From NCBI GenBank assembly GCA_019308645.1, contig JAFDHR010000053.1, positions 1-9,797 of the forward strand: a DNA stretch of 9,797 nt. Reading direction: 5' to 3'. The notes beneath the pieces are model-generated. The model did not search any database, had not been told where the DNA came from, and saw only the letters and a program-made list of their open reading frames with translations. Each line of letters opens with the position of its first letter. The stretch's first letter is position 1. This stretch comes from Deltaproteobacteria bacterium (GTDB taxonomy: Bacteria > Desulfobacterota > DSM-4660 > Desulfatiglandales > B25-G16). Positions 2,216 through 9,655 of the stretch are shown here, in pieces. The translations under genes and the position numbers were made by a program.

Positions 2216-3649
2216 ATGAAATATAATTCAGAAAATATCCGACCTGAAACTAACCGGTTCAGATTAGTTAAGTTTTTCGCCTATACAAGTTTCGTGATCC
2301 TCATTATTTCAAGCTTCACTCTATCAATGGTTATTTCCCAACGAGCCACAAAGGTCTTGATGAATACCTATGAGAATCATGCTCTTCTTATCGCAAATAA
2401 TTTAAACCATCAAGTATTTCACTATTTTACTATCCCTGTTAGATACAGATACGGGTCAATCAGTCTGAGAGAAAAGGAACAATCTGATCTGATGGATAAG
2501 ATAGTAAGGACTACTATTCACTCCTTTAATATAGAACAGGTTAATATATATGATACGGAGAAAGGCATTATTGCCTATAGTACCAATAGGGATTTGATCG
2601 GATTAACTGGCAGAGGGGGTATGGAATATAAAGCTGCCCTTGAGGGAAAACATAGCTCGCGTTTAGTATCCCGTGAACCTGCCATTTCCGGGTCTTTGTT
2701 CACGGATTTTGCAAAGGAGAAAAAGCTTAAGACCTTTATACCTTTCAAGGCAGAACCCCCTTATTACTACATCGGGATATTAGGTGTATTTGAGTTGACC
2801 CAAAATCTCACAAAAGAATATGAATCTATTTTAAAATTCAGGTATCTTATCTTTGGTGTATCTCTTTCGATTATGTTTCTTATATTCCTGGCTCTCCTGC
2901 TTGTAGTAAGGAAGGCTGAGCACATCCTTAGAAAAAGGGCAGAGGAACAAAAGCTATTAGAAGACCAACTGAATCAGGCTGAACGTTTAGCTGCGCTTGG
3001 TGAAATGGTCGCTGGTGTTTCTCATGAGATCAAGAACCCCTTAGGCATAATCAGGAGTACTGCAGAATTTTTAACAGAGAAATCAGCAGGTAATGAGAGC
3101 CAGAAGAAACTATCTTCTATTATTATTGAGGAGTCAGGGCGCCTCAATGATATTGTAACTGACTTTCTTGACTTTGCCAGACCTCAGGAGCCAAATTTCC
3201 AAGATTGTCACCTTGAAGAAATTATCGACAGAAACCTCTCTTTCCTGCAATCCGAATTAGATAAAAAGAATGTCGAAATAAATAATGGCGATCTGAATAA
3301 TAGGCCCTATAAAATTGAGGCAGATCCGGGCCTTCTTTATAGGGCATTCCTGAATATTTTTATAAACGCTATTCAGTCCATGAAAAATGGCGGTAATATT
3401 GATATTAAAATTGAAAAGGAGAAAGAAAATTACAGAATAGAAGTTTATGATACAGGAACAGGGATCAGCAAAGAAAACCTCAAAAAAATTTTTAATCCCT
3501 TTTTTACAACAAAGGATAAGGGAAGCGGCCTTGGATTGGCTATTGTGAAAAAGATTATAGAAGGGCATAAAGGAGAAGTATGGATAGAGAGCGAAGAAGG
3601 GACGGGAACAAGTGTATTTGTTATGTTGCCCCGAAAAAAACTAAAGTAA
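2216..3649 (+). CDS. Membrane sensor histidine kinase, HAMP-less ZraS-like
   Basis: A 477-residue sensor kinase of a two-component pair with the regulator downstream. Membrane segments lie near residues 20-41 and 209-232 and frame a ~165-residue extracytoplasmic sensor domain with no family I can name; its sequence between 105 and 195 (NIYDTEKGIIAYS, IGILGVFEL) has the flavour of a Cache/PAS fold. No HAMP is evident. A charged linker (233-260) leads straight to the dimerisation domain with phospho-acceptor H270 in SHEIKNPLG. The ATPase domain shows the N box (N384 in FINAIQSM), G1 DTGTGI (412-417), F box FNPFFTTK (426-433) and G2 GSGLGL (436-441), all intact. The 5-bp gap after the IMP cyclohydrolase gene indicates co-transcription. 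Its own ribosome site is weak (AGG at 2209-2211), so translational coupling is likely. The signal sensed is unknown. Confidence 0.95.
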   Translation: MKYNSENIRPETNRFRLVKFFAYTSFVILIISSFTLSMVISQRATKVLMNTYENHALLIANNLNHQVFHYFTIPVRYRYGSISLREKEQSDLMDKIVRTTIHSFNIEQVNIYDTEKGIIAYSTNRDLIGLTGRGGMEYKAALEGKHSSRLVSREPAISGSLFTDFAKEKKLKTFIPFKAEPPYYYIGILGVFELTQNLTKEYESILKFRYLIFGVSLSIMFLIFLALLLVVRKAEHILRKRAEEQKLLEDQLNQAERLAALGEMVAGVSHEIKNPLGIIRSTAEFLTEKSAGNESQKKLSSIIIEESGRLNDIVTDFLDFARPQEPNFQDCHLEEIIDRNLSFLQSELDKKNVEINNGDLNNRPYKIEADPGLLYRAFLNIFINAIQSMKNGGNIDIKIEKEKENYRIEVYDTGTGISKENLKKIFNPFFTTKDKGSGLGLAIVKKIIEGHKGEVWIESEEGTGTSVFVMLPRKKLK

Positions 3650-3757: not shown

Positions 3758-5119
3758 ATGGAAACAATCTTAATCATAGACGATGAAAAGAACTATCTTG
3801 TTATCCTTGAAGCCTTACTTTCTCCTGAGGGCTACGAGATAATTACAGAAGATAATGCCATGAATGCTCTCCGTTTAATTAGGGAAACAGATCTGGACTT
3901 AGTTATTACAGACATGAAAATGCCTGGGATGAATGGGATTGAACTCTTAGAAGAATCAAAGAAAATAAATCCTGAACTTCCCGTTATTATAATGACTGCC
4001 TATGGGACTATAGAAATGGCAGTCGAGGCCATGAAAAAGAGGGCCTATGATTATATTACCAAGCCTTTTAGAAATGAGGAATTAAAACTGACTATTAAGA
4101 AAGGCTTAGAAAACTATCGCCTTATTAAAGAAAACAGGCAGCTCAGTGAGGCCCTTTCAGATCGTTATAAATATGGAAATATAATCGGCAAGAGCAAACC
4201 TATGCTCAAGATCTATAATATGATCAGCAAAGTTGCCCAATCCAAGGCATCTGTCATGATCACAGGCCCATCTGGTACAGGTAAGGAGCTTATAGCTAAG
4301 GCCATTCATTATAATAGCCCAAGGAAAAACAGGCCCTTTATCTCTCTAAATTGTGGTGCATTGACTGAAACACTGTTAGAAAGTGAACTTTTTGGCCATG
4401 AAAGGGGCGCCTTTACTGGAGCTATTGCCATGAAAAAGGGGCGATTTGAATTGGCTGATGGGGGAACCTTATTTCTGGATGAGGTGGGGGAGATGCCACC
4501 TTCCTTACAGGTAAAACTACTTAGAGTATTACAGGAGATGGAATTTGAAAGGGTGGGAGGGACCAAAACCATTAAAGTGGATGTCAGAATTTTGGCAGCC
4601 TCGAATCGTAAATTAAAAGAGGACATAGACAGGGGAATATTTAGGGAGGATCTTTTCTATCGTTTGAATGTGGTTCAGATCGATGTGCCACCATTAAAAG
4701 ATAGGATCGAAGATCTTCCTTTTCTAACTGCACATTTTATAGAGAAATTCCAGCCATCCAAAAAGAAAAAAATAGAACTATCTCCTGATGTTTGGAAAGC
4801 CCTGTACAACTATAGCTGGCCTGGAAATATTAGGGAGTTGGAAAATACAATTGAAAGGGCTGCGGTGATGAATTCTGACGGATTAGTCAGCATAGAGGAT
4901 TTGCCAGACGAATTTTCAGGAAAACAGGAAGAAATCAATGTTGATAGATTCATACCCCTAAACGCTCCACTGCAAAAAACACTCGAGCAGATGGAAGAAC
5001 ATTTAATAAGAAGATCTCTGAAACAGTGCAATAATGTTCAATCTCATGCTGCAGAGATGCTCGGCATCACGAAAAGTCTTATTCAGCATAAAATGAAGAA
5101 GTACAACATCGTTGTTTAG
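3758..5119 (+). CDS. Sigma-54-dependent response regulator, NtrC/ZraR family
   Basis: A 453-residue enhancer-binding activator with three intact parts. The receiver domain (1-118) has acidic D8/D9, phospho-acceptor D52 in TDMKMPG and K102 in TKPF. The AAA+ domain (about 140-370) has Walker A GPSGTGKE (170-177), the sigma-54 contact loop GAFTGA (217-222), Walker B GGTLFLDEVGE (235-245) and the REDLFYRL arginine-finger region (296-303). The Fis-type helix-turn-helix is at the end (about 413-447, NVQSHAAEMLGITKSLIQHK). The kinase upstream is its likely partner. The ATG at 3758 begins METILIIDDE, as the receiver fold needs; an in-frame TTG at 3695 lies in repeat DNA and is rejected. No Shine-Dalgarno is apparent. 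GTACAA-type half-sites and a sigma-54 promoter just downstream suggest its target is the adjacent short transcript. Confidence 0.96.
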   Translation: METILIIDDEKNYLVILEALLSPEGYEIITEDNAMNALRLIRETDLDLVITDMKMPGMNGIELLEESKKINPELPVIIMTAYGTIEMAVEAMKKRAYDYITKPFRNEELKLTIKKGLENYRLIKENRQLSEALSDRYKYGNIIGKSKPMLKIYNMISKVAQSKASVMITGPSGTGKELIAKAIHYNSPRKNRPFISLNCGALTETLLESELFGHERGAFTGAIAMKKGRFELADGGTLFLDEVGEMPPSLQVKLLRVLQEMEFERVGGTKTIKVDVRILAASNRKLKEDIDRGIFREDLFYRLNVVQIDVPPLKDRIEDLPFLTAHFIEKFQPSKKKKIELSPDVWKALYNYSWPGNIRELENTIERAAVMNSDGLVSIEDLPDEFSGKQEEINVDRFIPLNAPLQKTLEQMEEHLIRRSLKQCNNVQSHAAEMLGITKSLIQHKMKKYNIVV

Positions 5120-5214
5120 AGGTTTAAAAAATTGTACCCATAATTATGCAATAATTTAAGTAGGTTATATTAAATAATAATTATATTATCCTTTTTGGGT
5201 ACAAAGAATTGTAC
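5101..5214 (+). promoter_or_regulatory. Cluster of GTACAA/TTGTAC half-sites, probable enhancer (UAS)
   Basis: Four half-sites of one hexamer occur in 114 bp: GTACAA at 5101-5106 (within the last regulator codons), TTGTAC at 5132-5137, GTACAA at 5199-5204 and TTGTAC at 5209-5214. The last two form the perfect-arm palindrome GTACAAAGAATTGTAC. In addition TTGTACCCA (5132-5140) is the exact inverse of TGGGTACAA (5196-5204). The palindrome centre is about 120 bp before the -12 element of the sigma-54 promoter, the usual place for an NtrC-family activator. Binding by the adjacent regulator is inferred. Confidence 0.52.
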
Positions 5215-5260
5215 TTTTAAGACAAATAGAAAAAGAGAATGGTGGTTTGGTATCACAGAA

Positions 5261-5279
5261 ATTGTTTAATTGAAACAAT
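5261..5279. promoter_or_regulatory. Second palindrome before the sigma-54 promoter
   Basis: ATTGTTTAATTGAAACAAT has perfect 7-bp arms around 5 bp and lies 35 bp upstream of the -24 element. It could be another regulator site or an IHF-type bending region, which often lies between enhancer and sigma-54 promoter. No further evidence is visible. Confidence 0.33.
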
Positions 5280-5313
5280 TAGTTACATAAACTATTCCCA
5301 AATATCATTATCT

Positions 5314-5330
5314 TGGCAAGAATATTGCAT
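5314..5330 (+). promoter_or_regulatory. Sigma-54 (-24/-12) promoter
   Basis: TGGCAAGAATATTGCAT matches the consensus TGGCACG-N4-TTGCA at all but one fixed position. The invariant GG (5315-5316) and GC (5327-5328) are separated by exactly 10 bases. The start site is expected near 5340. It is oriented away from the regulator gene towards the terminator, and no gene lies between them on this strand. Confidence 0.75.
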
Positions 5331-5339
5331 ATTAAGCAT

Positions 5340-5397
5340 TTAGAAATTAACCTCTTTTCTCCTAAAAAACCAACTGCTTATTAGTGGTTGGTTTTTT
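5340..5397 (+). ncRNA. Candidate sigma-54-dependent small RNA (~58 nt)
   Basis: The predicted sigma-54 start near 5340 and the intrinsic terminator ending at 5397 bound a transcript of about 58 nt. It has no start codon with a ribosome site, so it should be non-coding. The 5' half is single-stranded and includes the pyrimidine run CCTCTTTTCTCCT (5351-5363), which could pair with Shine-Dalgarno-like purine sequences; the 3' half is the terminator hairpin with a U tract, as in Hfq-type small RNAs. The arrangement parallels crcZ downstream of cbrB in Pseudomonas, but the sequence is not recognisably homologous. Transcription is not proven. Confidence 0.45.
5364..5397. terminator. Bidirectional intrinsic terminator
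   Basis: AAAAAACCAAC (5364-5374) and GTTGGTTTTTT (5387-5397) are perfect 11-bp complements around a 12-nt loop, with a six-T tract on either strand. On the minus strand it begins 2 nt after the era stop codon; on the plus strand it ends transcripts coming from the regulator operon and the sigma-54 promoter. Confidence 0.87.
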
Positions 5398-5399
5398 GT

Positions 5400-6287
5400 T
5401 TAGTATCCAAGCCTTCTTAAAGACCTTGTATCACTGCTCCAATTTTTTTCAATCTTAACAAAAAGTTCCAGATATACATGAGATGAAAATATTCTTTCCA
5501 TCTCCATTCTTGCATTTCTTCCTATTTTTTTAATCATGCTTCCGTTTTTCCCAATAATTATCCTTTTCTGTGAGGCCTTTTCCACAAATATCGTTGCCAT
5601 AACAGCAAGCAAATTCTTTTTCGGGTCTTCCTTTATTTTTTCAATATTTACAGCGCAGGAATATGGCAACTCCTCTCTTGTTTGATAATATATTTTTTCT
5701 CTTATAATCTCGGCCATTAGAAATTCCTCAGGCCTATCAGTAACCATATCAGTGGGAAAGAATTGAGGGCCCGGGGATAGTTTCTTTTTTAACTCCCCTA
5801 TTAAGGTCTCCAACCCATCACCATAAAGGGCAGACACAGGTATTATAGAATCAAAACGATCCATTTTGCTATATATCTCAATTATAGGCAGTAGATTTTC
5901 TTTTTTAAGCAAATCGATCTTGTTTATAGTAAGAATAGTGGTTTTGTCTGTTTTTCCCAAAATCCTTAATATAATATTTAGCTCACTATTATTTGCAGGC
6001 TCCTCAAAGCCGACTACCAGAAGTATCATATCAACCTCCCCCAAAGAACTTTTTGCCGAACCAACCATGCTTTTATGGAGCAGAGATCTCGTTTGATGGA
6101 TGCCAGGAGTGTCGATGAATACCATCTGGCAGTCATCTTCATTGTAAATCCCTAAAATCCTATTTCTGGTAGTTTGTGGCTTGGGAGATGTGATTGCTAT
6201 TTTTTGCCCAAGCAACCTGTTTAAAAGGGTAGATTTTCCAACATTAGGTGGCCCGATTATAGCTATAAAACCAGATAAAAAATTCAT
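5400..6287 (-). CDS. era: GTPase Era
   Basis: A 295-residue ribosome-associated GTPase that helps mature 16S rRNA and assemble the 30S subunit. The GTPase domain shows G1 GPPNVGKST (12-20), the KPQTTRNRI switch I region (36-44), G3 DTPG (59-62), G4 NKID (122-125) and G5 SAL (152-154). The C-terminal KH domain (about 205-285), which binds the 3' end of 16S rRNA, has its GKNG loop at 246-249 and a typical ending (LRRLGY). Length is normal for Era. The start codon follows a weak GGGAT ribosome site. It is last in the helicase-endonuclease V-era array, 111 bp after the endonuclease gene, and stops against the terminator. Confidence 0.98.
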   Translation of the reverse strand: MNFLSGFIAIIGPPNVGKSTLLNRLLGQKIAITSPKPQTTRNRILGIYNEDDCQMVFIDTPGIHQTRSLLHKSMVGSAKSSLGEVDMILLVVGFEEPANNSELNIILRILGKTDKTTILTINKIDLLKKENLLPIIEIYSKMDRFDSIIPVSALYGDGLETLIGELKKKLSPGPQFFPTDMVTDRPEEFLMAEIIREKIYYQTREELPYSCAVNIEKIKEDPKKNLLAVMATIFVEKASQKRIIIGKNGSMIKKIGRNARMEMERIFSSHVYLELFVKIEKNWSSDTRSLRRLGY

Positions 6288-9509: not shown

Positions 9510-9655
9510 AAGTAACTCAGCCACAAATTATCACGAATTATCACGAACGATTATTTAACAATCCTTTTTCTACAGACCCGCCTGCCGGATGGCGGGCAGG
9601 TTAATTTGTGTCCATTCGTGGCTGAATAATTAAAAATAGAATAACATAGTTACTT
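9510..9655. repeat. Inverted repeat of 10-bp words (element E) with inserted GC palindrome
   Basis: The outer ends AAGTAACT (9510-9517) and AGTTACTT (9648-9655) are exact inverted copies. Inside, the left arm has three 10-bp units of type CACRAATTAT (9522-9551) after CAGC; the right arm (9601-9624) carries two inverted units and the matching GCTG. The GC palindrome is wedged next to the right arm. It lies upstream of the helicase gene, where a promoter would be expected, though none is clear. Confidence 0.68.
9577..9600. repeat. 24-bp GC-rich palindromic repeat, copy 2
   Basis: It has the same alternating-hairpin block as at 1392-1415 (CCCGCC with GGCGGG, or GCCTGCC with GGCAGG), identical except for the central dinucleotide GA. 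It lies within element E, immediately before the right-arm 10-bp units. Finding it inside two unrelated repeat elements indicates an independently dispersed sequence. Confidence 0.85.

Follow-up and report, generated by a model that had tools for sequence, protein, structure and literature searches.

What an NtrC-type regulator controls from the DNA at its own 3′ side is the question raised by this locus, in which genes for a PurH-type protein (199 aa), a histidine kinase and an NtrC-type regulator are followed by a 280-bp gap and a convergent era gene. We analysed the whole 9,797-nt stretch of DNA (the window) together with related loci and genomes. The sequence-only reading of the window had placed a promoter, enhancer and terminator module beside the regulator, an observation that was confirmed in the window sequence and in relatives. 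The features of the window are as follows:

2216..3649, plus strand: histidine kinase, a membrane sensor with HisKA and HATPase_c domains; 80 loci with relatives
3758..5119, plus strand: NtrC-type response regulator with a sigma-54 AAA domain and a Fis-type HTH
5122..5137, plus strand: imperfect enhancer palindrome UAS1, GTTTAAAAAATTGTAC, about −190 from the promoter and at the same place in relatives
5199..5214, plus strand: perfect enhancer palindrome UAS2, GTACAAAGAATTGTAC, occurring once in the window with 0.00 expected
5273..5285, plus strand: IHF-like site, AAACAATTAGTTA, with a counterpart in relatives
5313..5330, plus strand: sigma-54 −24/−12 promoter, TTGGCAAGAATATTGCAT, of the form GG-N10-GC, from promoter scans and relatives
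5338..5398, plus strand: predicted small non-coding RNA of ~60 nt, placed by promoter and terminator, starting at about 5336-5340
5352..5365, plus strand: conserved core of the RNA, CTCTTTTCTCCTAA, complementary to Shine–Dalgarno (SD) regions
5363..5398, plus strand: intrinsic terminator of the RNA, 16 pairs, from a hairpin scan and the fold

The kinase structure model consists of a helix followed by a mixed alpha/beta sensor (mean pLDDT 66.9). The PurH homologue upstream (1611-2210) has 199 aa only, with an MGS domain plus positions 1-58 of AICARFT/IMPCHase, and the transformylase part is absent. The earlier placing of the module in one operon with an IMP cyclohydrolase did not generalize: among the 40 relative loci whose sequence reaches beyond 700 nt on the upstream side of the kinase, 9 have purH there, and the adjacency is local to the clade of the window. 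Elsewhere in the window, a REP-like GC-rich palindrome (ccgcctgccg..tggcgggcagg) occurs in two copies (1394-1417 and 9577-9602) within otherwise AT-rich intergenic DNA.

The pattern TGGCAN6TTGCW occurs once in the window against 0.01 expected, and the exact GG-N10-GC at 5313-5330 bears out the near-consensus −24/−12 promoter with 10-bp GG/GC spacing that had been called previously. Both palindromes lie upstream of it, 77 bp apart; UAS1 is the weaker in the window, and better palindromes occupy its place in relatives. Four GTACAA/TTGTAC half-sites had been counted here. Enhancer sites downstream of the regulator were upheld, but the GTACAA at 5101 most plausibly represents Lys-Tyr-Asn codons of the regulator and the second enhancer is the one at 5122-5137, so that the arrangement is two palindromes, not four half-sites. 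Of the 48 promoters read (46 relative loci, the window and one tandem copy), 34 have an IHF-like site, called with the IHF consensus, at −42 to −36 counted from the promoter; shuffled sequences gave a mean of 1.9 anywhere in the 95 nt.

Downstream of the promoter, the terminator-like hairpin at 5363-5398 follows soon after the predicted start, as the sequence-only reading had it; because 0.9 such sites are expected by chance in the 1.5 kb scanned, the terminator count alone is not significant. The fold predicted for the RNA (5338-5400) has an energy of −19.3 kcal/mol (z −5.8), most of which the terminator accounts for. Apart from era, just 23-34-aa ORFs overlap 5300-5400, and none of them starts from a plausible transcript site and closes before the terminator, in agreement with the promoter–terminator interval having been described as free of coding frames. 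A peptide role for the RNA was considered and judged unlikely, given that no ORF of this interval fits. Rfam returned no family at gathering score for the RNA, only sub-threshold matches.

A kinase-alignment scan kept 80 of 100 matching loci; the regulator was found in 65, and 59 of these have a complete regulator with at least 300 nt downstream. A sigma-54 promoter is present in 46 of the 59, and the 13 loci that have none are 12 with regulators at 58-61% identity, plus L029. The sequence-only reading had staked itself on relatives with the same gene order keeping the promoter and half-sites; the refuting outcome did not arise, the promoter being found in 41/41 loci in which convergent era follows the regulator. 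Enhancer palindromes occupy positions near −190 and −113, and are 76-79 bp apart in 44/48 by the script's best choice, which was off for L012, L054, L056 and L032.1. The core CTCTTT[TC]CTCCT lies downstream of 42 of the 48 promoters, the remaining six being variants, and is followed by AA in 38/48. At some loci (L032, at 12080 and 12643, and L131/L085), enhancer, promoter and RNA are tandemly duplicated between regulator and era.

The pattern of promoter plus core extends beyond the locus type of the window (group A): it matched 58 of the 395 genomes searched in the phylum, against 8 for the reversed control, with some matches plainly due to chance (for example, L082, L098 and L108). The same kinase–regulator pair precedes the RNA at L127, L128 and L130 (regulator at 54-57% identity). 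Group B has similar palindromes, and at the locus inspected (L129) no regulator adjoins the RNA. Group D, which we judge to be Geobacter-like, differs in its upstream repeats and has at most two pattern matches per genome. In each of the 15 genomes tested from groups B, C, D and similar, a relative of the kinase at 38-48% identity lies on another contig or no closer than 19 kb; it matches over nearly the full length in 14 of them and over residues 14-390 in G192. These loci bear on whether the transcript might act by its position, timing or protecting the end of era through convergent transcription or read-through antisense. In the window, the terminator does end two bases ahead of the era stop codon; yet the group B, C and D RNAs, which have the same promoter and core, have no era match nearby, and the core is conserved although the flanks vary. 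We therefore judge such a role highly unlikely.

Regulator and enhancers change together. The recognition helix TKSLxQHK (34 loci) pairs with GTACAA-type enhancers, SRxxMHYK (11 loci) with GTTAnn-type and GKSGLNQK (2 loci) with GTTCAA-type, such that helix and enhancer types match in 47/47 loci, with L046 relabelled by hand (its UAS2 is GTACAATATTTTGAAC, and the automatic label was wrong). The enhancer-type counts include regulator GTACAA codons, and the palindromes themselves agree. On a tree built without the HTH, each trait changes 8 times and 5/5 independent pairs on well-supported branches agree, too few pairs to reach p 0.05 (nothing below 0.06). The exact GTACAA-N4-TTGTAC palindrome occurs in 13 of 17 genomes (none in G001, G057, G293 or G388), every copy being at the RNA locus by coordinates; each genome has one, except that G011, which carries a duplicated RNA, has three. 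Of the 69 strict sigma-54 sites of G006, a single one, the promoter of the RNA, has the palindrome in exact form within 300 nt upstream, and the next-best enhancer matches near such sites have two mismatches. The regulator looks dedicated to the RNA, and the covariation of helix and enhancer makes it very probably the activator. Activation of a small RNA by the kinase–regulator pair, as proposed from the window alone, is supported by this 47/47 agreement and by the conserved promoter of the regulator–era loci. With the promoter standing before a short non-coding unit, the locus has the layout of a sigma-54 small RNA beside its own NtrC-type regulator, and we regard this predicted layout, together with its activation, as highly probable.

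The core, whose reverse complement is TTAGGAG[GA]AAAGAG, is complementary to an SD-to-start-codon stretch, suggesting mRNA targets. Among 2255 start regions of G006, the best belongs to a porin-like gene (18-bp match including two G-U, −30.6 kcal/mol; mean best of shuffled-flank controls −27.7 kcal/mol, sd 2.2), followed by PilC-like, lipoprotein and ClpB starts; beyond this top hit, the start-region energies of G006 show no clear excess over the shuffled controls. Searching 16 genomes for TTAGGAGGAAAGAGTAATG with up to three mismatches yielded 63 sites, of which roughly 16 are the RNA itself, versus 35 in the reversed control. Eleven non-self sites had at most one mismatch; all nine that were fetched open signal-peptide, porin-like proteins, in seven genomes, and the remaining two are the second RNA described below (G369) and a contig-edge site (G011:C81). 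No such porin site was found in 9 of the 16 genomes. Six non-self sites had two mismatches, and two of the five fetched open porin-like genes, one being the LbtU protein of G001; of two three-mismatch sites selected by eye, one belongs to a porin-like gene. From the 337 genomes that lack the RNA pattern, 80 were searched likewise with one mismatch allowed; the only match there looks like the RNA itself. In G001, the nearest genome, an LbtU-family porin start pairs with the RNA of the window over 12 bp. The exact 13-mer TAGGAGRRAAGAG in G001-G005 and G007, close relatives of the window, led to no porin start among nine stretches fetched, four of which are the second RNA; the T-type pattern gave 20 sites versus 11 in the control.

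Porin-family matches are weak for most targets, and these were called porin-like by eye. Above the Pfam cut-off are Porin_4 in P0142 and KdgM in P0124, two proteins related to L276 and L279, and LbtU for L285; other targets gave sub-threshold Porin_4 or DESULF_POR1, no Pfam family was found in 7/8 target fragments, and among solved structures none related to the porin alignment was found. P0121, identical to the fragment of L279, is a hypothetical protein of Desulfatiglans anilini, a cultured organism (G204) that appears to carry both RNA and porin. RNA and target also change jointly: ATCACTC in the RNA accompanies GAGTGATG in the target (G204, G351), and ATAGCTC accompanies GAGCTATG (G006). 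Own RNA–target pairs averaged −31.4 versus −29.1 for swapped pairs (p 0.0095, kinship uncorrected), and the own pair was better than the mean of the foreign pairs in just 8/12 targets.

An anti-SD core could pair with many purine-rich SDs, and the RNA, driven as described, could instead be a general translation damper or stress brake, with porins standing out only as abundant proteins that have near-consensus SDs. The complementarity to SDs as such, the overall energies of G006 near those of shuffled-flank controls with non-porin starts scoring well too, and the total of target-pattern matches in Geobacter-like genomes (207 versus 195 in the control) are all compatible with this idea. We consider it unlikely, because the extended TTA...TAATG match stands at porin starts in 9/9 fetched gene-start sites and in 0/80 pattern-less genomes, and because RNA and target change jointly in G204, G351 and G006. 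Sequence searches, then, found a seed complementary to the SD and start of outer-membrane protein mRNAs and co-varying with them, and the RNA probably represses porin translation. In Geobacter-like genomes (L112-L124, L299-L303), Lpp-like lipoprotein genes start with AGGAGGAAAG[AG]GTnATG, and unlinked sigma-54 RNAs carry the same core, again with up to two matches per genome. The five Lpp-like starts and one porin-like start of group D were picked by eye among the matches listed and are only suggestive; Alanine_zipper (Pfam) was below cut-off for the Lpp-like starts. For group C, a target pattern reading the RNA complement as SD, ATG and MKK codons was dropped, as it found the RNAs themselves only (5/7 genomes).

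In G001, G003, G004, G006 and G007, another strict sigma-54 promoter precedes a structured RNA of ~130 nt that contains TAGGAGAAAAGAG; the second RNA of G369, whose small RNA is C-type, contains TTAGGAGGAAAGAG, with the promoter beyond the fetched stretch.

L290, L291, L294, L295, L306 and G006 position 2479506, minus strand (G006): second-RNA loci, with the exact complement of the core

A pattern for the second RNA matched 8 of 27 genomes, most of the eight being one clade, and gave 0 in the control; the letter of the second RNA fits the T or C core type of the genome in 8/8. A covariance model found it in 5 of 395 genomes, of which four carry the small RNA and the fifth (G095) is weak; second RNAs from two of those four genomes were used to build the model. 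The RNA of the window pairs with the second RNA of G001 over 15 bp (−24.4 kcal/mol). The second RNA may be a sponge for the small RNA, the most straightforward interpretation. CsrA decoys hold several GGA motifs, as does the second RNA, which makes a CsrA decoy a candidate alternative to the sponge. The exact, type-matched complement and the GGA motifs could also mean that the core serves chiefly to bind a protein or another RNA, such as this second sigma-54 RNA or a CsrA-type decoy, with mRNA pairing secondary. That the second RNA was found in 8/27 genomes only, and that porin-start matches exist also in genomes where it was not found, render this improbable.

We place at about 0.72 the probability of our main reading, in which the two-component system switches on, through sigma-54, an RNA that represses the translation of porins with no recognisable Hfq. 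The kinase–regulator pair would respond to a signal, and the regulator, presumably activated by phosphorylation, would bind the two palindromes; DNA bending at the IHF-like site, putatively by IHF, would help to switch on sigma-54 polymerase at 5313-5330. The ~60-nt transcript would end at the terminator before era, and its mostly single-stranded core CTCTTT[TC]CTCCTAA would pair over about 12-19 bp with the SD region of porin mRNA, often reaching the start codon and blocking translation. The RNA is kept by many bacteria of sulfate-reducing type. Since its core is the counterpart of the translation start signals of genes for outer-membrane pores, it probably turns pores down when the sensor fires. 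Hfq (PF17209) was found in 0/22 RNA-bearing or related genomes and in 5/14 controls; small-RNA action there would need another chaperone or none.

NtrC-type activators drive small RNAs through sigma-54 in CbrB/crcZ, LuxO/Qrr and GlrR/GlmY, most of which work with Hfq or an Hfq-binding mechanism. The RNA of the window follows the same activator–sigma-54–RNA scheme, but the RNAs are unrelated and have other targets. crcZ is a long RNA with repeated A-rich Hfq/Crc motifs, and such repeats are absent from the ~60-nt RNA as read from the window sequence; the parallel to CbrB/crcZ with an unrelated RNA, drawn in the sequence-only reading, is apt for the layout. Closer in arrangement, by the published descriptions available, are Desulfovibrio vulgaris DVU0679 (Dv_sRNA2) and DVU0653, where a sigma-54 response regulator targets a non-coding RNA that lies immediately 3′ of the regulator gene, with no function given in those descriptions (PMC3333781, PMC4641369), and Myxococcus xanthus Pxr, which lies downstream of the sigma-54 regulator nla19/pxrR in a 262-nt intergenic region, has a predicted sigma-54 promoter and, like the RNA family described here, has tandem paralogues, in Cystobacter (PMC5568312, PMC5684412, PMC11928866). 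As described, Pxr differs in its length of about 108 nt, its three stem-loops and its control of fruiting, and an SD-complementary core is not among its features in those accounts.

MicA, RybB, MicF, MicL and Fusobacterium FoxI are small RNAs that repress porins or lipoproteins. Together with Burkholderia NcS25, reported to be constitutively expressed (PMC10117139), they resemble the RNA of the window in having a seed over the SD or start of an outer-membrane protein mRNA; unlike what is proposed for it, they are not known to be driven by a neighbouring two-component system through sigma-54. We found no report of the RNA of the window in the open-access literature, the scope of our search. Regulation of the outer membrane by small RNAs has been described chiefly in gammaproteobacteria that possess Hfq and in connection with sigma-E. 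The probable porin output and the candidate sponge RNA were not foreseen from the window alone. If the main reading is true, sulfate reducers and their kin would have a separate solution for such control. A Desulfobacterota-wide scheme, in which sigma-54 replaces sigma-E in Hfq-free envelope small RNAs, with a dedicated kinase and regulator, a porin-silencing anti-SD RNA, Lpp-like lipoproteins as targets in Geobacter-like genomes and a sponge RNA in some lineages, is a tentative extension that we rate somewhat below even odds. Because every component, from sensor through enhancer, promoter and RNA to target and possibly an antagonist, can be read in sequence, compensatory tests can be designed at once, and the RNA of the window may suggest a role for the non-coding RNAs that follow sigma-54 regulator genes in Desulfovibrio and Myxococcus.
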